64,000 nt of DNA, taken from the NCBI RefSeq assembly GCF_004569295.1, contig NZ_SPQC01000001.1, forward strand, positions 1 to 64,000, given 5' to 3'. The translations under genes and the position numbers were made by a program. The stretch comes from Rothia nasimurium (lineage in GTDB: Bacteria > Actinomycetota > Actinomycetes > Actinomycetales > Micrococcaceae). The notes beneath the pieces are model-generated. The model was given only the letters and a program-made list of their open reading frames with translations, was not told the origin of the DNA and ran no database searches. Below are positions 23,911-38,401 of this stretch, piece after piece (within the stretch, counting starts at the first letter, position 1; every line of letters begins with the position of its first letter).

Positions 23911-23937
23911 GGGGTCATGCACTTAGTGCATGACCCC
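23911..23937 (+). terminator. Perfect 12-bp hairpin after prs
   Basis: GGGGTCATGCAC and GTGCATGACCCC pair perfectly around TTA. There is no T-run after it. It lies between prs and the first gene of the polysaccharide island and may end glmU-prs transcription or act as a processing stem. Confidence 0.6.
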
Positions 23938-23965
23938 TCACTGTATCTATAGGAGGAGGGGGAGA

Positions 23966-25417
23966 ATGGCTGAAAGAACTTTAGCTCAGAGAGGTGCACG
24001 TGGAGGGGCTAACGCTGTTGGCGGTCAGCTGGCGAAAATTGTCATTAATCTTGTTTCACTCGCAATTTTGGCAAGACTTATCAGTCCTGGAGAGTATGGG
24101 CTAGTTGCTATGGTTATGGCTGTAATGGCAATAGCTGATGTATTTAGAGATTTCGGTCTAACATCAGCTACCATCCAAGCAAAAACGATTTCGCCTCAGG
24201 AACGAAGTAATTTATGGTGGCTAAATACCACAATGGGAGCAGTAGTTGCTGTTGCTATAGCACTTCTTGCCCCTGTTGTTGCAGCAATATATAGCGATGA
24301 TAGGCTGATTTTAATAACTCTTGTAATGTCACTAAATTTTGTTATTTCTGGGATGTCAACTCAGTATTTTGCAAACCTTCAGCGAGAGATCCAGTTTGGC
24401 AAGATTGCAGTGAATAATATTATTTCTAATATAATTGGATTGATTGCTGCAGTGATCATGGCTTTGAATGGATTTGGGGTCTGGTCTCTAGTATTTCAAG
24501 GATTAGTAATAGCTATCGCCAGCTTATTGATCTTTATTATTCAGACTAGGTGGATTCCCGGAGGCTACAATAGGTCAGTATCTATGCGTAGATTCTTGAA
24601 TTTTGGGATGCCTCTCATGTTTTCTAATCTGCTAAACTATTTCTCAGGTTTAGTTGATGTTTATATGATTGGTCATGTTGCGGGGCCTGAGGTGCTTGGG
24701 TATTTCAACAGATCTTCTCAGGCTGTTCGCACGCCACTGAATAGTTTGAGGTCACCACTAAATAATGTTGCCTTTTCTACTTTGTCGAAAAAACAATCAT
24801 CCAATGCAGAAATCGTTACTTCAATAGAAAAAGGTCAGATTCTTCTGGCCTACCCTCTAACCTTAATTGCAGGCGGCTTGGCAGCGGCATCCTCGTCACT
24901 GGTTGTCTTTTTTCTGGGTGAAAGTTGGCAAGCAGCTGCGCCATTTTTTGCTTGGATTGCGATTACCGAGGGGCTTAATTGCCTTGCGATGACAGCGGGA
25001 TGGATTTTTCTTATTCGAGGCAAGTCTAAAGGACTTATGAATCTAACGATTTTCAGCTCGATTAATAGAACTATTTTTGTTATTGCAGGTGCTTTGGTGA
25101 TGGGTCCGCTAGGAGCCGTGGTGGGGCAAGCAGTGGCTGTGATGATTCAATGGCCCTTGTCTTTGCTGTGGGTTCAGAGAGTAACGGGGGTATCCACTAA
25201 AGGTCTACTGGTTAACTCATATCGAATATTTGCTGTTGTATTATTCTCCACTGCATTAAATTATTATGTTCTTCAGGGGATGTCGGTGAATACAGTTGCC
25301 TCCATTGTTCTTGGCGTTGTGCTGCAATTGGTTCTTGCCGTAGCCTGTGCTGTCATTCCATCAGTGAGAAAGGATTATATATATATTATCAAATTTACAA
25401 AATCTTTGAAAAAATAG
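23966..25417 (+). CDS. Wzx-type polysaccharide flippase (WzxC/MOP superfamily)
   Basis: Integral membrane protein of 483 residues with 12-14 hydrophobic segments, predicted to flip undecaprenyl-pyrophosphate-linked repeat units to the outer face. The N-terminus A-Q-R-G-A-R-G-G-A-N-A-V and the following E-Y-G-L-V-A-M-V and F-R-D-F-G-L-T-S-A match WzxC/Polysacc_synt_3 proteins. ATG 23966 is chosen because AGGAGGGGG stands before it; a longer frame would begin inside the prs hairpin. The gene is markedly richer in AT codons than glmU-prs, a sign of separate ancestry. First gene of the island. Confidence 0.9.
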   Translation: MAERTLAQRGARGGANAVGGQLAKIVINLVSLAILARLISPGEYGLVAMVMAVMAIADVFRDFGLTSATIQAKTISPQERSNLWWLNTTMGAVVAVAIALLAPVVAAIYSDDRLILITLVMSLNFVISGMSTQYFANLQREIQFGKIAVNNIISNIIGLIAAVIMALNGFGVWSLVFQGLVIAIASLLIFIIQTRWIPGGYNRSVSMRRFLNFGMPLMFSNLLNYFSGLVDVYMIGHVAGPEVLGYFNRSSQAVRTPLNSLRSPLNNVAFSTLSKKQSSNAEIVTSIEKGQILLAYPLTLIAGGLAAASSSLVVFFLGESWQAAAPFFAWIAITEGLNCLAMTAGWIFLIRGKSKGLMNLTIFSSINRTIFVIAGALVMGPLGAVVGQAVAVMIQWPLSLLWVQRVTGVSTKGLLVNSYRIFAVVLFSTALNYYVLQGMSVNTVASIVLGVVLQLVLAVACAVIPSVRKDYIYIIKFTKSLKK

Positions 25418-25710
25418 TAGATTCTCTGCCGGCAGAAATCAGTATAAATTATTTTTCGTTTCAAGATTTACGAGCCGTTGGATATTTTGGCGTAATTTTT
25501 GCTTTCGGCGGAGTGTATGATTTTTTGAAAAGATTCTACAAATTTTACATTTATTGTAATTTTTAGATGTGCTGGCAGTGCGTAATTCTATATTTGTTTA
25601 TGGGGTTAGATTTCATTTTTAAGATTGGAAAAATATTGAAATTCTGATAGAATGGTATTGAAATTTTCAATTTTTCTATAGTGTGTCAATTCTGAGGGGG
25701 GATGACTTCG
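25418..25710. other. AT-rich intergenic region with promoter, before the glycosyltransferase operon
   Basis: This 293-base stretch carries no gene. It has a 12-base palindrome TCTGCCGGCAGA at 25425-25436 just after the flippase stop, a long AT-rich middle, and a strong promoter near its right end. It separates the flippase from the main glycosyltransferase run. Confidence 0.6.
25625..25653 (+). promoter_or_regulatory. Predicted promoter for the 25.7-37.2 kb glycosyltransferase operon
   Basis: TTGGAA at 25625-25630 and TAGAAT at 25648-25653 are separated by exactly 17 bases. A 15-base inverted repeat, ATTGAAA-T-TTTCAAT at 25657-25671, overlaps the expected start of transcription and could be an operator. 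Confidence 0.6.
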
Positions 25711-26676
25711 ATGGATAATAATATGGTGGATCTGTCAATCGTCATACCTTTTTATGGAGATCCGGCAGATACTTTAAACCTTGTGGATCAGATTCAGGCG
25801 CAGGAGTCTGTGGCTTCGGTGCAGATTATTGTTTCTGATGATGCCTCTCCGCAACCTTTTCCCGAACTCAGCGGTGTAACTACTGTTCGTCGCGAATTCA
25901 ATGGTGGGTTCGGCGTCAACGTCAATACGGGTGTTGCTGTTGCTGAAGGTAAATGGGTGCTTATCCTTAACAGTGATTTAACCCTGCCTGACGGTTTTAT
26001 TGATGATATCTGTAAAGCAGCAGAGGAAGAACAAGCTTTTTATGGGGGAAGGGGGGTTATGGTTGCTCCTCACATCGTGGGGCATGACAACGAGTCACAG
26101 TGGGTTGGCCGATTCTTCCCCAAAACGCGTCACCACGCCTGGGAATGGTTCACCCCAGTAGCTCGCTTCCGGCCCACCAGGGTTTGGCATGCAATGGCTG
26201 GTCACGATTTAGCATGTACCACTGGCAAACGGGCAGAACCTGATTGGCTCATGGGTGCCTGTATGATGATTCGCCGAGAAGACTTCAATACAGTCGGAGG
26301 GATGGACGAACGATTCTTCATGAACAGCGAAGAAGTTGACTTGCAGCGCAGGCTCGCCACCCATGGTATCAGACGTATCTTTCGAGGCGATATAGTAATA
26401 GAACACGTAGGTGGCGGCTCATCTGGAGCTTCTGTCCAGCGTCGTCAATGGGTTCTCGACTCTCGCTTTATTTACAACTCAAAGTGGATTGAAGGTAAGC
26501 ATCTGGCTACTGCCTTGAGGATTGTATCTATTGGCAATTTCCTCTTTAATTCCATCCGTGCGGTCCGCAACCGGACTGTTACTCCTTACATGACTCTCCA
26601 CGAAGAACTAACCTACATCAAGAAAGCAGAAAGCAGAAAGCAAACGATAAATGGCAGAGAAACTTCTCATCATTAG
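25711..26676 (+). CDS. GT2 family glycosyltransferase (rhamnosyltransferase-like)
   Basis: Cytoplasmic GT-A enzyme of about 321 residues. The start L-S-I-V-I-P-F-Y-G-D and S-D-D-A-S mark the nucleotide-binding region, N-S-D-L replaces the usual DxD, and M-G-A-C-M-M-I-R-R-E-D-F with D-E-R-F-F-M-N-S-E-E-V-D-L is typical of rhamnosyltransferase-type GT2 proteins. ATG 25711 has GAGGGGGG at good spacing; ATG 25702 is too close to that site. It overlaps the next gene by 26 bases. The dTDP-rhamnose genes at 40-43 kb make rhamnose a sensible donor, but that is inferred. Confidence 0.88.
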   Translation: MDNNMVDLSIVIPFYGDPADTLNLVDQIQAQESVASVQIIVSDDASPQPFPELSGVTTVRREFNGGFGVNVNTGVAVAEGKWVLILNSDLTLPDGFIDDICKAAEEEQAFYGGRGVMVAPHIVGHDNESQWVGRFFPKTRHHAWEWFTPVARFRPTRVWHAMAGHDLACTTGKRAEPDWLMGACMMIRREDFNTVGGMDERFFMNSEEVDLQRRLATHGIRRIFRGDIVIEHVGGGSSGASVQRRQWVLDSRFIYNSKWIEGKHLATALRIVSIGNFLFNSIRAVRNRTVTPYMTLHEELTYIKKAESRKQTINGRETSHH

Positions 26677-27658
26677 CCCTGCTTTCCATGGCTATTGCTA
26701 CTCCATCGCAGAGGGCTTCACTCAACTAGGATACGATGTAACGGTACACCGCTACGACGCCTTCGACACCGTCAAGGACAAGCTGCGCAATAAAGCCCTC
26801 TACGAGCTCCCTTCAAAGGTTGGCTTCGACGGGCAAAAAGCTGCTGAAAAAGCGGCTACTGCTAAAGCCCTGCAAGTTCTCCGTAACCTTAGTCCCGACA
26901 AGCTTATTGTTATAAAAGGTGACGCCTTAGGGGATAGCTTTTGGCAGGCTGTTGCAGACCGCAAAATTCCCTACATCCTTTGGCTATACGATGATCTCAA
27001 GCGCTGTCGCTACACCAAGAAATTCTTACAGGAGTTACCTCTGGTAGTTAGTTATGCCCGTACGGAAGCTGAGGAACTCGCTTCAGATGGAATAAACGCG
27101 CATTTTGTCGCCAACGGCTATGATCCGGCTCTAGCTGGTTTTCCACAAAAACGAAACAACGAGATTGTATTCGTAGGGTCACGGTATAAAAACCGGGAAG
27201 AAATGATAGTCAAACTATCAAATTCTGGGGTTCCGGTACGAGCCTACGGCCGTGCATGGTCCCATCACCCCTTCGACCGTTTGCGTACCTGGGAAATAAA
27301 ACGTCCAAACATTCCTTCTGAGCGAGATATCACCTTGGCGCAGGCTTATGAAGTTCAGGCGTCTGCTGCTGCTGCACTTAACATTCACGGTCTACAGGCT
27401 GGTCTAGCTATGCGTACCTTTGAGGTGCCTGGTATGAATGGCCTTCAGCTGATTGACAGGCCAGATGTTGAAGAGTTCTATGATGTTGGCTCTGAAGTGC
27501 TCGTCTACCAGAGCACAGAAGACCTTATTGAACTGTGCCAGCGTATTATCAGTGACCCCACCTGGAGCGACTCTATTCGAGCGGCTGGTCTCAAACGTAG
27601 CCAGGCTGAACACACTTTCTTCCATCGTGCACAGAAAATGGATACCCTGTGGGTCTAG
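26651..27658 (+). CDS. CgeB-like glycosyltransferase (GT4-related)
   Basis: A 335-residue GT-B-fold protein. The N-terminal half begins L-L-I-I-S-P-A-F-H-G-Y; the C-terminal half has F-V-G-S-R-Y-K-N-R-E and A-L-N-I-H-G-L-Q-A-G-L-A-M-R-T-F-E-V-P-G, ending with D-V-E-E-F-Y-D-V-G-S-E-V-L-V-Y. This order of motifs belongs to the CgeB (spore-maturation-protein-like) glycosyltransferases that decorate surface polymers. It overlaps the upstream GT2 gene by 26 bases and the downstream gene by 10, so translation is coupled. Sugar specificity unknown. Confidence 0.85.
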   Translation: MAEKLLIISPAFHGYCYSIAEGFTQLGYDVTVHRYDAFDTVKDKLRNKALYELPSKVGFDGQKAAEKAATAKALQVLRNLSPDKLIVIKGDALGDSFWQAVADRKIPYILWLYDDLKRCRYTKKFLQELPLVVSYARTEAEELASDGINAHFVANGYDPALAGFPQKRNNEIVFVGSRYKNREEMIVKLSNSGVPVRAYGRAWSHHPFDRLRTWEIKRPNIPSERDITLAQAYEVQASAAAALNIHGLQAGLAMRTFEVPGMNGLQLIDRPDVEEFYDVGSEVLVYQSTEDLIELCQRIISDPTWSDSIRAAGLKRSQAEHTFFHRAQKMDTLWV

Positions 27659-28719
27659 TTTATCCTGAAGATCTCGAAGGTTGGAGTAAGTGGCAAGCTA
27701 ACGCTCATCCTATCCGTAGAGCTAAAGTTGCGATAAAGGAAGTGCCAGCCGGAGTACGCAATCACAGAGAGCTTTCTAACTTATCTACCTCTGTATCGGG
27801 TTATCTACATACAGTAGGTAAAACCCCTCAGACTCTTATTGCGCTTGACTCCACATCGCCCACCTCTTTAGGCTCGTTGGTACGACCAGCTCATTTCCTT
27901 TCAGCTGAATCGTATGCGGTGTGGGCTCCCGAGGACGTTACTGCCCACCTCTCTGAGGGTGAGTGGGCTGTTACCCGCTTAGATGAGGTCGAACTCTATA
28001 ATAAACTAGTTTCTCTCCGCCAGGTTCTTGCATTAGGGCACTACATGGCATGGGGCGGCGCGGCTTACCGGCTGGCCCAGCGTATGGGCGCTCGTTTCAT
28101 TACCGTCCAGCACGGTTTGCATACCCCCTATGCCCCGCCGTTGGCTCCTGGTACCCACCTTCTTGCTTTTAGCCAAGCTGATGCTGAGTTTTGGATATCA
28201 GGACGAGGCGACGTTACTTATGACGTAGTTGGGTCGCAACTTTTATGGGAATCTGCTCAGACCCCTCGTATAGATGATTCCGAAATAGCGGATTTACCTA
28301 TATTCCTGGGGCAGATGCATGGAGCCGAGCTTTCTCGACTTTCATATGCTCAAGCAGGATACAGATTCTGTAAGGAGACCGGGGCCCGTTACCGACCTCA
28401 CCCTAACGAAAAGGACAAACTGTCTGTACTTACCCATGCTTTATGGGACAAAGTGGGTATAGAGATTGACCGAGGTCGCGAGCCCCTAAACACGCTGACT
28501 AACCCTGTAGTATCAATTTTTTCTACAGGGGTACTTGAAGCGGCAATTAGGGGATTCCCGGCTTGGGTTTATCATCCCAATCCGCCTGCGTGGGTTAGAG
28601 AGTTTTGGGATAGGTACGGTCTTAGTCGGTGGGGAGAGGCTCCCACGCCAGCACCGGCTGTGCCTTCAAGGCCTCCAGCACAGACTATTGCACAATATTT
28701 AGAGGAGAAACTTAAATAG
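27649..28719 (+). CDS. HP-motif glycosyltransferase, candidate nonulosonate (CMP-sugar) transferase
   Basis: I do not recognise a named family with certainty. The 356-residue protein has Q-H-G at 154-156, R-P-H-P at 249-252 and S-T-G-V-L-E-A at 292-298. This order resembles bacterial polysialyltransferases and the KpsC/KpsS Kdo transferases, GT-B enzymes that use CMP-linked acidic sugars. The GTG start overlaps the previous stop and neuA begins immediately after this gene's stop, so it is cotranscribed with CMP-nonulosonate synthesis. A role in transferring the nonulosonic acid into the repeat unit is inferred. It could instead be another polysaccharide transferase of the same fold. Confidence 0.72.
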   Translation: MGLVYPEDLEGWSKWQANAHPIRRAKVAIKEVPAGVRNHRELSNLSTSVSGYLHTVGKTPQTLIALDSTSPTSLGSLVRPAHFLSAESYAVWAPEDVTAHLSEGEWAVTRLDEVELYNKLVSLRQVLALGHYMAWGGAAYRLAQRMGARFITVQHGLHTPYAPPLAPGTHLLAFSQADAEFWISGRGDVTYDVVGSQLLWESAQTPRIDDSEIADLPIFLGQMHGAELSRLSYAQAGYRFCKETGARYRPHPNEKDKLSVLTHALWDKVGIEIDRGREPLNTLTNPVVSIFSTGVLEAAIRGFPAWVYHPNPPAWVREFWDRYGLSRWGEAPTPAPAVPSRPPAQTIAQYLEEKLK

Positions 28720-29439
28720 ATGCGCGTTCTATGCGTGATACCCGTTCGCGGCGGGTCTAAGGGAATTCCGCGCAAGAATCTCAAACCTATTGCGGGTAAA
28801 CCCCTCGTTGCCTGGACCATCGAACAGGCCCTTGCTGCAAAGGCTGAGCTAGATGGCGAGCACCTGGTTGACGTGGTGGTATCAACGGATGACGCTGAGC
28901 TAGCTGGTATTGCACGCCAGCACGGGGCAGAAGTACCCTTCATGCGCCCGGCTCACCTGGCGGAAGACACCACCGCCACCGAACCGGTGATTGAGCACGC
29001 TATCGAGTTCTATACAGCGGAGGGCAAGCGTCCGGACGCCGTCATGCTCCTGCAGGCGACCTCACCCGTCCGCCTACCCGGCACCCTGGCCCGTGCTATC
29101 CGCCAGTTCGCTGCCTCTGCATCAGATTCCATGGTGGGTGTCATCCCTATCGGCCCCTTCATCTGGGCTGCCACCGAGCCTCCCATTGCCCAGTACGAGG
29201 TCATGGCCCGCCCCCGCCGTCAGGAACTCACCCGTGAGACCTTCCGGTACCGCGAAAACGGCTCCATGTACATCACCAAGACCGAACTCTACGAAACCCT
29301 GCACAACCGACTGGGCGGCAACATCGAGCTCTTCATGCTTGATGAAGTTGAAGGCGTAGATATTGACGCCCCCATCGACTTCTCCGTCGCAGAACACCAG
29401 CTGCTCATCACACTCGCATCAGAAGAAAACGAAGGCTAA
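28720..29439 (+). CDS. neuA: Acylneuraminate (nonulosonate) cytidylyltransferase
   Basis: Activates a nonulosonic acid with CTP to the CMP-sugar. The 239-residue product starts V-I-P-V-R-G-G-S-K-G-I-P-R-K-N-L, the P-loop-like motif of NeuA, and contains L-Q-A-T-S-P-V-R and R-Y-R-E-N-G-S-M-Y-I-T, also diagnostic, followed by D-I-D-A-P-I-D-F. Substrate may be Neu5Ac, legionaminate or pseudaminate. It is GC-rich, unlike the glycosyltransferase genes around it. Five bases separate it from the neuB-like fusion. Confidence 0.93.
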   Translation: MRVLCVIPVRGGSKGIPRKNLKPIAGKPLVAWTIEQALAAKAELDGEHLVDVVVSTDDAELAGIARQHGAEVPFMRPAHLAEDTTATEPVIEHAIEFYTAEGKRPDAVMLLQATSPVRLPGTLARAIRQFAASASDSMVGVIPIGPFIWAATEPPIAQYEVMARPRRQELTRETFRYRENGSMYITKTELYETLHNRLGGNIELFMLDEVEGVDIDAPIDFSVAEHQLLITLASEENEG

Positions 29440-29444
29440 AAACC

Positions 29445-31688
29445 ATGATTATCGAACGTAATATCACCGCCTACATCGTTTTCTCTGAGGACCCGGTACT
29501 CACCGCCCTGCAGAAGATTTCTGCTAACGGGCAGCGCATTATCTTCCTGGTCAACGAATCGGGTGTGCTTAAGGGATCCCTGTCAGACGGCGACTTCCGC
29601 CGCTGGCTCATCGCTAACCCCACCGCGTCCCTCGAAACTAGTGCCCTCGAGGTAGCTAACCAGGGCGTTAAGACCGCCCCTATTGGTTCAGAGCCCGCAG
29701 ACCTCCAGGGCGAGTTTGCCAAGGGTATTAGCCACCTTCCCCTGGTAGATGAACGCGGCCACCTGGTTGCTATCGCCATGGACGAGCAGAACGTGCTGCG
29801 TATCGGCCGCACCGAAATCACCGAAGACTCACCCACCTTCATTATTGCCGAAATCGGCAACAACCACCAGGGTGACGTTGACCTGGCAAAGCGTCTGGTT
29901 GACCTGGCTGTTGATACCGGTGCAGACGCCGTTAAGTTCCAGCTACGTGACATGGACGCCCTCTACCGCCAGAAGGGCTCAAAGTCAGCCGGCGAAGACC
30001 TGGGCGTGCAGTACACCCTTGATCTGCTCTCTCGTTTCTCTCTGACCGTAGACCAGATGTACGAGGTCTTTGATCACGTCAAGCAGCATGATATGGACAT
30101 CATGTGTACCCCCTGGGACGGCCCCTCGGTCCAGGCCCTGGTTGACTACGGTATCCAGGGTCTCAAGGTCGCTTCTGCTGACCTAACCAACCACGAACTG
30201 TTGCGCGATATGGCATCCCGCGGTCTGCCCATGCTGGTCTCCACCGGTATGAGCCGCGAAGAAGAGATCCGCGAATCGGTGAACCTGCTGCGCTCCCTGG
30301 GCGCTTCTTACGCCCTGTTGCAGTGCCAATCCACCTACCCTGCGCCTTTCAAGGACGTCAACCTGGCCTACATGAACCGCCTGGCTGGAATCGGTCAGTG
30401 CCTGGTGGGCTACTCAGGCCACGAACGTGGCTACCATGTGCCCATCGCGGCTGTTGCCCGCGGTGCAAAGATTATTGAAAAGCACTTCACTGTCGATAAG
30501 ACCCTCGAAGGTAACGACCACACCGTCTCCCTGCTACCTGACGAGTTCAAGGCTATGGTGCAGCAGATTCGTGAAGTAGAGGAATCTATCGGTACTTCAG
30601 CCCCCCGCGAGGTTTCCACCGGCGAGCTGATGAACCGCGTCAACCTTGCTAAGTCGCTGGTTGCTACCCGCACCATTGCTAAAGGCGAGGTCGTGACCGA
30701 GGCGGACGTCGAGGTCAAGTCACCCGGCCGCGGCCTGCAGCCCAACTACCTGCCCCAGCTTCTGGGCCGCACCATGCAGCGTAAGGTCGAAGCCGGCACC
30801 TTCTTCTTCGAGGGCGACCTGAAGGACGACCTCGTGACCCGCCGCGACTTCAAGTTTGACCGCCCCTGGGGCCTGCCCGTTCGTTACCACGACTACAAGC
30901 CCCTGATTGAGGACGCCGAGCCTGACTTCCTGGAGTTCCACTTCTCCTATAAGGACCTTGAAGTCAACATCGATGAGGTCTTCGACCGTAAGCTCGACAT
31001 GTCCTTCACCACCCACCTGCCCGATCTCTTCGCCGGTGACTTTTTGGTAGACCTGGCCTCTCGCGACCAGGAAACCTGGGAACGCTCCATCGCAGAGGTC
31101 CAGCGCACCATAGACATCACCCGTGACCTGACCCGCTACTTCACCGTGGATGACGACCCGGTTATGGTCGTTACCATGGGTGGCTTCACCAAGGACGGCC
31201 ACATCGCACCGTCCGCTCGTGCCGACAAGTATGAGCGCATCGGCGAGGCCCTGGCCAAGCTCGACACTTCAGGCGTGCGCATCGCGGCCCAAACCCTGCC
31301 CCCCTATCCCTGGCTCATGGGCGGACAGCAGTACCACAACCTCTTCCTTGACCCCAAGGACACCGCTGACTTCTCCGACACCTACAACACCGCCCTCTGC
31401 CTAGACATCTCCCACACCATGCTGGCGGCCAACTTCCTCAAGATTCCTCTCTCTGAGGCCGTTGAACTGCTCGCCCCTCGCTCCATCCACCTGCACCTGG
31501 TAGACGGTATCGGTGTGGACGGCGAAGGCGTTCAGGTCGGTGAAGGCGACGTGGACTGGGCCGCGCTCGGTAAGCAGCTGCGCGAACTGACCCCCAAGTC
31601 CTCCTTCATTCCCGAAATCTGGCAGGGCCACGTCAACAACGGCGAAGGCTTCTTCACCGCACTCGATAGGCTCGAAAAGTGGCTGTAA
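29445..31688 (+). CDS. neuB: NeuB-type nonulosonic acid synthase fused to CBS, SAF and TIM-barrel domains
   Basis: Condenses phosphoenolpyruvate with a six-carbon sugar to make a nine-carbon nonulosonic acid. The 747-residue protein is about twice the length of plain NeuB. Domains in order: CBS pair, 1-120; NeuB barrel, about 128-385, with A-E-I-G-N-N-H-Q-G-D, G-Y-S-G-H-E and I-E-K-H-F-T; SAF/antifreeze-like domain, about 397-460, with S-P-G-R-G-L-Q-P; and a xylose-isomerase-like TIM barrel, about 468-747, with D-I-S-H and H-L-V-D-G. The last domain could isomerise or epimerise the sugar substrate and the CBS pair could bind a regulatory nucleotide; both are inferences. Related long NeuB proteins are known in other phyla. 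Confidence 0.9.
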   Translation: MIIERNITAYIVFSEDPVLTALQKISANGQRIIFLVNESGVLKGSLSDGDFRRWLIANPTASLETSALEVANQGVKTAPIGSEPADLQGEFAKGISHLPLVDERGHLVAIAMDEQNVLRIGRTEITEDSPTFIIAEIGNNHQGDVDLAKRLVDLAVDTGADAVKFQLRDMDALYRQKGSKSAGEDLGVQYTLDLLSRFSLTVDQMYEVFDHVKQHDMDIMCTPWDGPSVQALVDYGIQGLKVASADLTNHELLRDMASRGLPMLVSTGMSREEEIRESVNLLRSLGASYALLQCQSTYPAPFKDVNLAYMNRLAGIGQCLVGYSGHERGYHVPIAAVARGAKIIEKHFTVDKTLEGNDHTVSLLPDEFKAMVQQIREVEESIGTSAPREVSTGELMNRVNLAKSLVATRTIAKGEVVTEADVEVKSPGRGLQPNYLPQLLGRTMQRKVEAGTFFFEGDLKDDLVTRRDFKFDRPWGLPVRYHDYKPLIEDAEPDFLEFHFSYKDLEVNIDEVFDRKLDMSFTTHLPDLFAGDFLVDLASRDQETWERSIAEVQRTIDITRDLTRYFTVDDDPVMVVTMGGFTKDGHIAPSARADKYERIGEALAKLDTSGVRIAAQTLPPYPWLMGGQQYHNLFLDPKDTADFSDTYNTALCLDISHTMLAANFLKIPLSEAVELLAPRSIHLHLVDGIGVDGEGVQVGEGDVDWAALGKQLRELTPKSSFIPEIWQGHVNNGEGFFTALDRLEKWL

Positions 31689-32806
31689 ATTCCAGCCTGC
31701 CGGTAGCGCTGCACTGTGTTCCGGTACCCGAATTTGGCGGTGTAGCCCGGCATATCAGCGACCTCGCTGAGGCCGGGCTACCCGGCTATCACCTGATTAT
31801 TCTTTGCCCAGCAGGTGCTCTTTCAACGCGACTCAAGGAGCTGGGGGCGGACGTGCGCGAAGCTGACTTTGGTACGGACGCCGGGTTTGCGGCGTCCTTG
31901 CGTACGTTAGATATCCTCATTGATGACCTTAAACCGGCCATCGTCCACTCACACTTGGCCTATGCGGATGTAGTAGTAGCAGCTGTCGTCAACCTCCGGA
32001 AGGCCCGCAAACTTGTTCGCCGTGGAACCTATGTACCAACGCTGTTCACCACAGAGCACGGTATCGCAGGGGACGATGCGGTCTATCACGGCGCCTCTTG
32101 GCGCTCACGTCTGATGGAAACCGTGCACCGGGTACGTCTGTGGGGCACTGACGGGAAAATTGCTGTCTCGCGCTCAACCGCTGACCAGATGAGGCGGAAG
32201 TGGGGCGCTCGCGGTGTTGACACGGTGTATAACGGGATTGATGTTGTTGAAACCTTCGATGCTGTTGCCGCGCACCGTGTAGAGGCGGGGGAAGGGGCAC
32301 TACGTGTGCTGTCCCTATCGCGCCTGGCACCTGAGAAGGGGCTTGATATCTTGGTTGAGGCTTTTGCTCGGGTTCACGAGCAGGTACCGGGCGCAGCCTT
32401 GGAGATTGCCGGTGCTGGTGAACTAAAGGACGCTCTTACGCGACAGGTGGCAGAGCTTGGGCTTGAGAAAGCCGTAACCTTCCCCGGCTTCGTTGACCCC
32501 ATCGAGGCTATGGGCAGGGCGGACGTTCTGGTACAGCTTTCTGTCTGGGAAAACTGCTCTTATACCCTGCTGGACGCTAAGGCAGCAGGCCTGAATGTTG
32601 TTGCGACCGCTGTGGGCGGTAACCCGGAGATTCTTGACGGCTCTGAGCTGGTGCCCTCAATGAACCAAATGAATCGGAAGGCTGCTGTTGCAGCTGTTGC
32701 CCAGAAGATTCTGGAGGCTAAGGAGTCTTCTAACGAACCCTTGAACTGGGTGAGCACAACAGATATGGGGCAGCAAATAGCTGACTTGTATAGGAAGGCG
32801 GACTGA
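31679..32806 (+). CDS. GT4 family glycosyltransferase
   Basis: A 375-residue retaining GT-B enzyme. F-G-G-V-A-R-H-I near the N-terminus and L-S-R-L-A-P-E-K-G-L-D-I-L in the second domain, then W-E-N-C-S-Y-T-L-L-D-A-K-A-A-G (the EX7E position), are typical of GT4. The GTG start overlaps the neuB stop by 10 bases. Codon use is GC-rich like neuA/neuB and unlike the next gene. Likely adds one sugar of the repeat unit; specificity unknown. Confidence 0.9.
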   Translation: MAVNSSLPVALHCVPVPEFGGVARHISDLAEAGLPGYHLIILCPAGALSTRLKELGADVREADFGTDAGFAASLRTLDILIDDLKPAIVHSHLAYADVVVAAVVNLRKARKLVRRGTYVPTLFTTEHGIAGDDAVYHGASWRSRLMETVHRVRLWGTDGKIAVSRSTADQMRRKWGARGVDTVYNGIDVVETFDAVAAHRVEAGEGALRVLSLSRLAPEKGLDILVEAFARVHEQVPGAALEIAGAGELKDALTRQVAELGLEKAVTFPGFVDPIEAMGRADVLVQLSVWENCSYTLLDAKAAGLNVVATAVGGNPEILDGSELVPSMNQMNRKAAVAAVAQKILEAKESSNEPLNWVSTTDMGQQIADLYRKAD

Positions 32807-32807
32807 C

Positions 32808-34055
32808 ATGGCATTTGTTGGTGTAAGCGAGCAAGGCAAGCTTACCGTGGGTGAGAAAACCATGGGAGAGCTGGCCCGTGAAGCAAGCGAGCGAGCCAAA
32901 ACGGAGGCTTCACAGATACGACTGCCTGAGTTCTTAATGTTTGCATCACTAATTTATGGCCGGCATGTTCCAGGCATAGGGTTACCATTCAACCAACTTA
33001 TGGTGTTTGTGATTGTTGGTTATGCTGTCACCCGTAAGCCCGTCTTTGAGCTGAGCAAGTGGTCAAGACTTTTTGTGGTGCTCGGACTGTTACTGGCCTA
33101 TGTTGCAGTCGTATCTGTCTTTGCTGACCCTAGTGAATACGCGTCTGATTGGACAAGACGATTACTGCGTCTAGTTGCTATGACTGCGCTCATATATGTT
33201 ATTGCGGTTGGGCAAGTTCATTTACGATCAGCAATTCTTGGCTACTCAACAGCACTGCTTATTAATGCTGTGCTCTTTTTTGCTGGTTTGGCTCCAGACA
33301 CCTACGGAGGGTATCTCACAGGCTACCTAGGCGATAAGAACTATGCAGGGCTAGTCCATGCACTGTTTGCGTTGCTCATTATGACAGCCCTGATAAAACG
33401 CTGGCAGCAGATAACCGTACTTATCGTTTCGTCATTCTTGCTCTGGGAAACTGGATCGCGTACATCACTGGCCGCTCTTTTGTTTGCTTATTTATGGATT
33501 TTGCTTGCTCCACGATTGGTTCCGCTTGCAAAGGTGGCCTTGCTCGGTGTTTTTTGGTGGGCGATTGGCCTTATAACGGAGGACTTTGCGGATGCCGCGG
33601 TTTTTGGGGACCGAACAGGTACGGATATACTGCGTGCTCGGATTGATGAAATGTCCTGGGAAAAAGTTCAACAAACAGGTTTCTTTGGCCAGGGATTAGG
33701 TGAAGCCTACGTGTATGACTTTAAGGGAGAACGCACTTGGTTTTTCCATAACTCCTATTGGTCGGCTTTTGTAGAAGGCGGATGGATCTGGGCTATAGCT
33801 ATAGCATTAGTTACTCTCCTGATAGCGGTGCGCCCCTTAAACAAAAATGAGGGACAAAATTTTTACCAGTTTATTGGGCAAGGCCTTGGGGTTGCTCTAT
33901 TAATTTGTGCTTTGCGGCTGGGGGAGGTCTTCTATACTTTGCCCTGGGCTATCTGCATGGGATATGTTCTTCGCACGCTGGTGATGGCTGCCCAAGAAAA
34001 CCGACATTTACGTCTTTTTGGATACGATCAAGAGATTGCTAATCGGAAAATATAA
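32808..34055 (+). CDS. Wzy-type O-antigen polymerase/ligase
   Basis: A 415-residue protein with about ten to eleven hydrophobic segments and a long outside loop near 260-320 containing G-F-F-G-Q-G-L-G-E-A and F-F-H-N-S-Y-W-S-A-F-V-E-G-G, which matches the conserved G-x-G and H-N loop of Wzy_C/O-antigen ligase proteins. It would polymerise flipped repeat units. It begins two bases after the upstream GT4 stop. It is AT-richer than neuB. Polymerase rather than ligase is inferred from the Wzx and Wzc genes in the same island. Confidence 0.85.
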   Translation: MAFVGVSEQGKLTVGEKTMGELAREASERAKTEASQIRLPEFLMFASLIYGRHVPGIGLPFNQLMVFVIVGYAVTRKPVFELSKWSRLFVVLGLLLAYVAVVSVFADPSEYASDWTRRLLRLVAMTALIYVIAVGQVHLRSAILGYSTALLINAVLFFAGLAPDTYGGYLTGYLGDKNYAGLVHALFALLIMTALIKRWQQITVLIVSSFLLWETGSRTSLAALLFAYLWILLAPRLVPLAKVALLGVFWWAIGLITEDFADAAVFGDRTGTDILRARIDEMSWEKVQQTGFFGQGLGEAYVYDFKGERTWFFHNSYWSAFVEGGWIWAIAIALVTLLIAVRPLNKNEGQNFYQFIGQGLGVALLICALRLGEVFYTLPWAICMGYVLRTLVMAAQENRHLRLFGYDQEIANRKI

Positions 34056-37232: not shown

Positions 37233-37547
37233 TTAGACTCCTTCTTCTAATATAATAGCTTCTGAAACTTTTACTAGTCCCTGTGCTTTTAGATCATAAA
37301 GAAAATCTAGTACGCTCGCTGCAACAGTTTCTTTCGAGACCCCGTAGATTTCAGTTATCTCTAAAATTAGGTCTTCCGAAGTCGTTGGGTTTTCTAAAAT
37401 TTCCCATATCATGGCGCTAGAACCGTTGAGCACCGCAATATTTGAGGTCAGAAGATTAGCTACATATGAGGCATCATCTGTAGCGTCTTCGCTCTCAAAA
37501 CCCATGACAAAAGCAGTATGAGGGCATCTACTGTATACAGCACCCAC
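37233..37547 (-). CDS. PqqD-like protein (RiPP recognition element fold)
   Basis: A 104-residue protein of the PqqD family, winged-helix domains that bind peptides in RiPP systems. N-G-S-S-A-M-I-W-E-I-L and the pattern T-S-E-D-L-I-L-E-I-T-E-I-Y followed by V-L-D-F-L-Y-D-L-K-A-Q-G-L-V match the family core. The GTG start shares one base with the stop of the nucleotidyltransferase gene, so the two are translationally coupled. No radical SAM enzyme, peptidase or precursor peptide was seen near. Its client protein is unknown; such genes are also seen with polysaccharide loci in other bacteria. Confidence 0.8.
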   Translation of the reverse strand: MGAVYSRCPHTAFVMGFESEDATDDASYVANLLTSNIAVLNGSSAMIWEILENPTTSEDLILEITEIYGVSKETVAASVLDFLYDLKAQGLVKVSEAIILEEGV

Positions 37548-38401
37548 TATTTTCTCCCTAGACTCTGGGCAAGGCCCTTAAACCTACTAAAAAATTTCTC
37601 ACGAATTTCTTGCTGACTTGGAGCATGGCCAAGCTCCATAGCTAGATGGTCTTTGTTAACAAGGAAGATACTTGCGATGATCTTTGCTTTGTTCTGGAGA
37701 CCCTTTGCATGGGTAATACGAGCTTTCCACTGTACGTATTCTGGGGTGTCTTCTGAAACAGATTTCCAGAGTAGGTAATCCGGGTGATTCCGGTACTGAT
37801 CTAAAGTGCCTAGTGCCGCCGCGTATGCAAGATTAGCTTGGAGCTGAGGCACCCTAAGATCCATCTCTCCCCATTCTTCTGGAGTCAGAGTCTCACGTAA
37901 GTGCTCTATGTCTGGATTTTTCTCATGAGTGGAACGAGCTCCGTGAACAACCACTAGAATGCGGGAATCTACAACTGAAGGTAGGGAGCAAGGGTAGTTG
38001 GCAATATCTTTGCTACGGCGCTGCTTCCATAGAGTTTCAAAGGCGGAACCTTCTGCATCGCCAACACCAGGAAAATAGCGGTGGATATCTACTAACCCCC
38101 AAGAACCATGGTAAAGAGTCATAGCATGTTCAAAAATTGAACCTGTCTCAAAATGAGTAAGAATCTCCCACCCATCTGCTAGCACAAGTTCAATAAAACG
38201 TTCTAGATGTGATGGTCTGACGAGCAAATCGACATCTGTACTTTTGCGGCCGGGGCGATAAACCTCTTGGGCAAAGGCATAGCCTTTTATGTGCAGCAAA
38301 TCAATTCCGTTGCTATTAGCGAGATGCTGAAAATATGCATGGGATAGCTGAATACGAATAGCTAAGGGAACATCAAGATGCTGGGCATCGGGAGTACTCA
38401 T
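37547..38401 (-). CDS. Nucleotidyltransferase family protein (NTP_transf_5-like)
   Basis: A 284-residue protein. H-I-K-G-Y-A-F-A-Q-E-V-Y near 37-48 with S-T-D-V-D-L-L-V-R-P near 55-64 corresponds to the K-G and D-x-D metal motif of the uncharacterised NTP_transf_5 nucleotidyltransferases. H-G-S-W-G-L-V-D-I-H follows and is a conserved later element. Together with PqqD it forms a pair seen in polysaccharide and peptide-linked loci. It follows the tyrosine kinase gene on the same strand, separated by a hairpin. Substrate unknown; protein AMPylation or sugar activation are both possible. Confidence 0.8.
   Translation of the reverse strand: MSTPDAQHLDVPLAIRIQLSHAYFQHLANSNGIDLLHIKGYAFAQEVYRPGRKSTDVDLLVRPSHLERFIELVLADGWEILTHFETGSIFEHAMTLYHGSWGLVDIHRYFPGVGDAEGSAFETLWKQRRSKDIANYPCSLPSVVDSRILVVVHGARSTHEKNPDIEHLRETLTPEEWGEMDLRVPQLQANLAYAAALGTLDQYRNHPDYLLWKSVSEDTPEYVQWKARITHAKGLQNKAKIIASIFLVNKDHLAMELGHAPSQQEIREKFFSRFKGLAQSLGRK

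Follow-up and report, generated by a model that had tools for sequence, protein, structure and literature searches.

What does a NeuB-type synthase make when it carries a CBS pair ahead of its catalytic barrel and a second TIM barrel behind its SAF domain, and what do these outer domains contribute? Such a gene lies in the window considered here, which is the whole stretch of 64,000 nucleotides analysed from Rothia nasimurium (contig NZ_SPQC01000001.1). From the evidence set out below, the fused synthase is real and well conserved, belongs to a type known from Serratia, and is best read as Kdn-type. The gene, its domains and its immediate neighbours are as follows:

23930..25417, forward strand: MOP/Wzx-type flippase (NCBIfam matches, below cut-off)
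25702..27658, forward strand: two glycosyltransferases, one of GT2 type and one of Glyco_trans_1_2 type, in the upstream part of the cluster
27649..28719, forward strand: protein without a Pfam or NCBIfam match, candidate Kdn transferase from its R-P-H-P-N-E and S-T-G-V-L-E motifs
28720..29439, forward strand: NeuA-like CMP-sugar synthetase (CTP_transf_3), directly upstream of the fused gene
29445..31688, forward strand: fused CBS-NeuB-SAF-TIM protein, 747 aa, ATG open reading frame; predicted Kdn-type nonulosonate synthase
29475..29774, forward strand: CBS pair, residues about 11-110 (end estimated), accessory and possibly nucleotide-sensing, with a conserved D-G-D-x-R-R
29895..30596, forward strand: NeuB catalytic barrel, residues 151-384 (Pfam, E 3.2e-77)
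30651..30818, forward strand: SAF/antifreeze-like domain, residues 403-458 (Pfam, E 2.2e-10), including Ser426 (30720-30722)
30828..31685, forward strand: xylose-isomerase-like TIM barrel, Pfam match at residues 498-745 (AP_endonuc_2, E 1.9e-21)
31679..34055, forward strand: GT4-type glycosyltransferase and Wzy-like polymerase, downstream (Wzy weak, below the Pfam cut-off)

The protein scored 259.7 bits against the NeuB superfamily model PF03102 (curated cut-off 22.1) and its C-terminal barrel 77.4 bits against PF01261 (cut-off 31.1); within the 2.69 Mb window assembly, the fused gene is the sole PF03102 match. Searches with the full-length protein returned a Pfam CBS match at residues 11-55, and two PF00571 CBS stretches were detected in the isolated N-terminal 115 residues, so that the label "CBS pair" is correct. 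The sequence-only reading of this locus had proposed the same coordinates and domain order, an N-terminal CBS pair, intact NeuB motifs, and the barrel motifs D-I-S-H (residues 654-657) and H-L-V-D-G (residues 684-688); these are all borne out by the open reading frame, the Pfam matches and the active-site alignment described below. A structure model of the full-length protein reached a pTM of 0.63, for which reason we make no claim on domain packing.

Searches of GTDB contigs identified 150 stretches encoding relatives, of which the best 80 were kept (best-segment identity 59-99%), from Rothia, Kocuria, Micrococcus, Arthrobacter, Pseudarthrobacter, Sinomonas, Microbacterium, Nocardioides, Tessaracoccus and other actinobacteria. 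Translations of 79 of these best 80 exceed 700 aa and can be aligned with the window protein, which argues for a real gene rather than a chance reading frame; one (L016), truncated by its contig end, was excluded from the 80-row alignment. Rothia nasimurium records encode a protein 99% identical to that of the window. In a sample of 396 genomes from the phylum, three of the 59 NeuB matches listed at 88 bits or above were fused, namely the window's own, G322 (L125) and G341 (L113). The fusion was also identified on one of 72,556 plasmids (Ensifer canadensis, 47.5% over the whole length) and on four viral contigs (IMG/VR), three of which are near-identical to one another. It is no Rothia peculiarity, being common to many actinobacteria, an Ensifer plasmid and viral contigs, and an earlier suggestion that the novelty of the gene lies in its context is weakened by this spread and by a published Serratia counterpart.

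When 296 genomes of the phylum were queried with only the C-terminal barrel, the sole strong match was the window's own gene; 13 other genomes had matches at E 3.8e-6 or weaker, with 28-35% identity along part of the barrel. A scan of 15 wide loci (L133-L147) gave two barrel matches only, both of them fused genes (L143, L144), and no separate barrel was found near the NeuB at the 13 unfused-NeuB loci among them; a split form, with a stand-alone barrel beside an unfused NeuB, was rejected on this count (0 of 13). At one of 56 unfused-NeuB loci (L106; G306:C31), a separate, distant barrel ORF was seen at 33 bits, as the second ORF after a NeuB that carries Arg at the position discussed next and has a NeuA-like ORF ahead of it (order and NeuA assigned by eye). 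This observation is recorded as a lead only.

Closer examination of the NeuB half revealed an intact catalytic site and one consistent substitution. Equivalents of Glu25, Lys53 (which we take to be an active-site residue), Gln55, Lys129, Tyr186, Ser213, His215 and Glu234 are all present in the aligned window row. With the exception of Lys53, this list was taken from work on Neisseria meningitidis NeuB (PMC6795526; this and the other cited reports are represented here by excerpts), in which Arg314 helps to position the N-acetyl group of ManNAc, the R314A variant is inactive, and mannose is not accepted. The N. meningitidis NeuB/SiaC chains (1xuu, 2wqp, 4ipi, 4ipj) share the NeuB barrel, the SAF domain and the same catalytic residues with the Rothia protein; unlike it, they span 349-351 aa with neither a CBS pair nor a TIM barrel, and have Arg314 in the native enzyme. 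In the HMMER alignment the Arg314 position is occupied by Ser426 of the window protein, and by Ala and Lys in 4ipi and 4ipj, respectively. We infer that these two chains are the published R314A and R314K mutants, and since they differ at exactly the Ser426 column, the alignment of Arg314 is secured.

Serine occupies this position in all 80 aligned fused proteins. A broader alignment agrees, with Ser in all 12 of its fused rows (window, L019, L039, L049, L080, L125, L113, Ensifer and L098-L101, and thus including viral contigs and a distant genome) and Arg in all 16 of its unfused SAF-bearing rows. Across 58 NeuB loci sampled from the phylum, Ser is found in both fused members; unfused NeuBs with a SAF domain number 30 and divide into Arg (22), Lys (2), Ser (2) and other residues (4), and 26 loci were counted as SAF-less. 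With Ser also in two unfused NeuBs, the substitution was rejected as a perfect marker of fusion. The best NCBIfam model for the protein is that of Neu5Ac synthase (TIGR03569), at 309.5 against an equivalog cut-off of 399.65, and the SAF-domain Arg314 of a Neu5Ac synthase proper is replaced by Ser426; the pseudaminic acid synthase model (TIGR03586) likewise fell short, at 234.1 against 340.25.

In a midpoint-rooted tree of 40 NeuB rows, the 12 fused NeuBs formed one group (support 97/94), and a branch with 100/97 support separates them, together with 12 SAF-less NeuBs, from the remaining rows. Nine of these 12 SAF-less rows come from one genus of the window's class, probably Streptomyces. Kdn is reported in a wall polymer of Streptomyces (PMC11481543, PMC7831098) and also in that of another actinobacterium, Promicromonospora citrea (PMC6801904). 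All 12 SAF-less NeuBs (L115-L117, L120-L124, L126-L129) share with the 12 fused rows a Trp at the Phe112 position, and among the 26 loci counted as SAF-less this position is Trp in 22, Phe in two and a gap in two. The SAF-less group is possibly one of Streptomyces Kdn synthases.

A described counterpart is found in Serratia marcescens, in which the KL1 and KL2 capsule types possess a NeuB with an additional COG1082 domain (PMC9000132). Deletion of KL1 neuB lowered sialic acid 4-fold in a thiobarbituric assay and stopped capsule production; the sialic acid is KDN, an identity confirmed by HPAEC-PAD with purified KDN as the reference; Neu5Ac accompanies it at about 1:20 (about 5%), and both were undetected in strain UMH9 when the variable capsule region was deleted (PMC9000132). 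A 2025 paper again reports KDN as the predominant Serratia sialic acid and a capsule-null KL2 neuB mutant (PMC12077157). The Rothia locus has the same constitution of NeuB, sugar isomerase-like barrel and NeuA neighbour, the Serratia NeuBs carrying an added COG1082 sugar isomerase/epimerase domain with NeuA encoded in the same polysaccharide locus; the likeness is one of description (PMC9000132) rather than of compared sequences, and the excerpted text does not state a CBS pair for Serratia. Kdn is also formed from a mannose-type acceptor and PEP by the Kdn-9-P synthase route of Bacteroides thetaiotaomicron and Prymnesium parvum, which differs in using Man-6-P; the excerpted report describes a separate phosphatase in B. 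thetaiotaomicron and none found in P. parvum, and mentions no barrel fusion (PMC6200933).

We then considered which acceptor sugars the genome could supply. Profile searches of the whole window assembly (completeness 99.99%, a figure for this genome only) identified no member of PF02350, which we take to be the family of NeuC, WecB and LegG, and none of PF07221 (GlcNAc 2-epimerase); PseG was also absent from the genome, and ManA was present (TIGR00218). An earlier statement that the window holds no NeuC or other 2-epimerase thus extends to the whole assembly for these two families but not for NanE, of the ManNAc-6-P 2-epimerase family, which is encoded on a different contig from the fused gene. 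The sequence-only reading had named as refuting it a functional neuC or legionaminate/pseudaminate pathway elsewhere in the genome that fully supplies substrate, together with a barrel lacking catalytic residues; neither PF02350 nor PseG was found. The NanE locus (L132; G000:C46:33500-42041) places a DHDPS/NanA-family gene, a ROK kinase, NanE, NagA and NagB near one another (DHDPS confirmed by Pfam; ROK kinase, NagA and NagB by eye). By its gene content this is an apparent sialic-acid catabolism (nan) operon, which would probably allow host sialic acid to be degraded and, through NanE, makes it a conceivable source of ManNAc.

These searches were extended to 26 fused-gene genomes (the window's own and 25 from loci picked among the best 80, L021 left out). 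PF02350 was present in 15 and absent from 11, of which eight also lacked PF07221 and three possessed it. ManA was identified in all 11 of the PF02350-lacking genomes by TIGR00218; PF01238, tried beforehand as the test for mannose-6-P isomerase, gave 0 of 11, being a model of the C-terminal domain of the type I enzyme. Since ManA already occurs in all 11, a barrel making mannose-6-P would be redundant. On the Ensifer plasmid, a mannose-1-P guanylyltransferase with a mannose-6-P isomerase domain is followed by neuA and the fused gene; this mannose gene may serve GDP-mannose only.

Taken together, the loss of Arg314, the tree position and the Serratia precedent suggest formation of Kdn from a mannose-type sugar, as does the lack of NeuC family, GlcNAc 2-epimerase and PseG in a genome possessing ManA; they point away from the Neu5Ac chemistry on ManNAc that the sequence-only reading had implied. 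We infer that the product of the Rothia protein is probably Kdn. The NeuB-SAF half would join PEP to an unacetylated aldose of the mannose type, either free mannose or mannose-6-phosphate, to give mainly Kdn; the adjoining NeuA would make CMP-Kdn, and a glycosyltransferase of the cluster would incorporate Kdn into a polymer of Wzx/Wzy type. For the TIM barrel we propose a metal-dependent sugar enzyme that is active in this pathway too, most likely as an isomerase/epimerase preparing the acceptor, and the CBS pair would be an add-on regulator. Counting against this account are the possible supply of ManNAc through NanE, the PF02350 proteins in 15 of the 26 genomes, the two unfused NeuBs with Ser, and the pseudaminic acid model as best match, below cut-off, of the neighbouring cytidylyltransferase. 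As a whole, the view that two enzymes are united here to make a nonulosonic acid, mainly Kdn, for a polysaccharide of the cell surface is our best explanation, and we consider its chances evenly balanced.

With a model available for the barrel alone (mean pLDDT 88.6, pTM 0.89), we examined its fold and putative active site. The first Foldseek match was MJ1311 (3wqo), a tagatose-3-epimerase-like protein (TM 0.64, 17% identity), followed by an endonuclease IV, and the 50 rows listed also include many ketose 3-epimerases together with MbnB proteins, additional endonuclease IV entries and sugar isomerases. By both sequence and fold the best match is the ketose-epimerase-like MJ1311; ketose 3-epimerases such as UlaE and D-allulose 3-epimerase likewise have the fold of the window barrel, and MJ1311 in addition shares its D-x-x-H and H-x-H-x-x-D...G-E-G pattern. 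Conserved residues in a nine-row barrel alignment comprise 50 invariant positions, including D654, H657, H682, H684, D692, E694 and E724, while the other eight rows show 35-81% barrel identity to the window. The putative metal site, Gln616-Asp654-His684-Glu724, keeps by eye three of the four residues of what we take to be the Glu-Asp-His-Glu site of ketose 3-epimerases; the strand-5 Glu, present in MJ1311, is Gln in eight of the nine rows and is kept only in L113. Because these putative metal-site residues are mostly conserved, the barrel is very probably active, as a working, somewhat altered metal enzyme. A strand-5 Gln in place of Glu would be unusual for a two-base epimerase, and the structural similarity to the best matches is moderate (TM about 0.6). 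Which reaction it catalyses is not readable from sequence; acceptor supply is favoured as the leading guess, in which our confidence is slightly below even. A search of the open literature, with subscription papers mostly outside its scope, showed no study of the function of this barrel among the papers listed.

These features also bear on what else the protein might do. The barrel could instead be a phosphatase freeing Kdn from a Kdn-9-phosphate that the NeuB half makes from mannose-6-phosphate, in which case neuA and neuB would suffice for CMP-Kdn. Its H524-x-P...L-x-D-L-A-S stretch resembles what we take to be the third-strand His motif of Endonuclease IV, the phosphoesterase at Foldseek rank 2; conversely, among the nine residues that we presume to be the zinc ligands of Endonuclease IV, eight of the nine rows, the window among them, have other residues in place of H109 and E145, and all nine in place of H231 (by eye), and the best match by sequence and fold remains MJ1311. 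The occurrence of ManA in every one of the 11 tested genomes would suit such a phosphatase, as would the formation of Kdn in B. thetaiotaomicron, and presumably in Prymnesium, by way of Man-6-P and then a phosphatase (PMC6200933). We regard this as the strongest rival, given that the described Kdn routes run via phosphorylated intermediates and that no Pfam match to a phosphatase family was found among the nine neighbouring proteins examined, and nevertheless judge it unlikely. An ordinary Neu5Ac synthase, acting on ManNAc from host sialic acid or from a 2-epimerase (possibly the barrel itself, from GlcNAc), would agree with the intact NeuB catalytic residues, the N-acetylneuraminate synthase model as best NCBIfam match, the apparent nan operon, and the small amount of Neu5Ac made by Serratia (PMC9000132). 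It is rendered rather improbable by the score below the equivalog cut-off, by the Ser at Arg314, and by the eight of 26 searched fused-gene genomes lacking both PF02350 and PF07221; moreover, a cell already having Neu5Ac need not remake it.

Two further readings concern the barrel only. Its separate fold, placed after the SAF domain, and the general capacity of ketose epimerases with this TIM-barrel fold to accept keto sugars would be consistent with a role after condensation, e.g. epimerising or isomerising the new acid to an unusual nonulosonate. The confirmation of the Serratia product as KDN by HPAEC-PAD (PMC9000132) speaks against such a role, which we consider improbable. Still less probable is a non-catalytic or regulatory module, as might be suggested by the Gln at the strand-5 metal position, in view of the 50 invariant positions, which include the presumed pocket His, Asp and Glu. 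Returning to the Kdn-type reading, a more far-reaching version of it is rather less likely than not: NeuB-SAF-TIM would be a self-contained Kdn synthase whose barrel is an undescribed mannose-forming isomerase/epimerase or Kdn-9-P phosphatase. Two genes, neuA and neuB, would then be enough to convert a common metabolite into CMP-Kdn with no need of NeuC, and this would apply to many actinobacteria, to a rhizobial plasmid, to Serratia and probably to viruses. Annotation by best match, here N-acetylneuraminate synthase, would lead one to expect a cell surface bearing host-like Neu5Ac; should the family in fact make Kdn, many commensal and soil actinobacteria would be mispredicted in this way. 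The question of how Kdn is made by bacteria that have neither NeuC nor a dedicated phosphatase would also come down to a single protein.

The CBS pair appears to be dispensable for the core function, as it is missing from five of the 12 fused rows (L098; L099-L101, near-identical to each other; and L113). A comparison of domain architectures among NeuB homologues, put forward earlier as a check, reveals a fused form that recurs widely, both with and without this pair. Its D-G-D-x-R-R is invariant in the aligned actinobacterial family, and the pair may sense a nucleotide, a suggestion that we hold tentatively.

The flippase-like protein, glycosyltransferases and weak Wzy match surrounding the fused gene probably mark a Wzx/Wzy-type surface polysaccharide cluster. 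The NeuA-like protein has PseF (pseudaminic acid) as its best NCBIfam model, below cut-off. Across 47 loci (46 actinobacterial and Ensifer; ORFs chosen by length and GC bias, some of them spurious), ORFs clustering with the 27649..28719 protein were identified in 28, NeuA in 27 and the downstream glycosyltransferase in 27. Two alignments (A1, A2) covered 34 of the best 80 loci and the window. A short-motif screen of neighbours gave one G-T-R-P-E match in 650 ORFs and, being crude, is not taken to show absence. The 27649-28719 protein ahead of NeuA, without a family match of its own, is a candidate for a new nonulosonate transferase family. Beside the polysaccharide cluster, at 37233-38401 on the reverse strand, a small PqqD-like protein adjoins an uncharacterised NTP_transf_5 nucleotidyltransferase. 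Among the viral contigs, a GT29-family sialyltransferase lies directly before NeuA and the fused NeuB-SAF-TIM gene in L098 (3763-6885), and directly before the fused gene in L099 (4352-7750), where a DHDPS-family aldolase follows; both contigs read as virus-borne sialylation sets.
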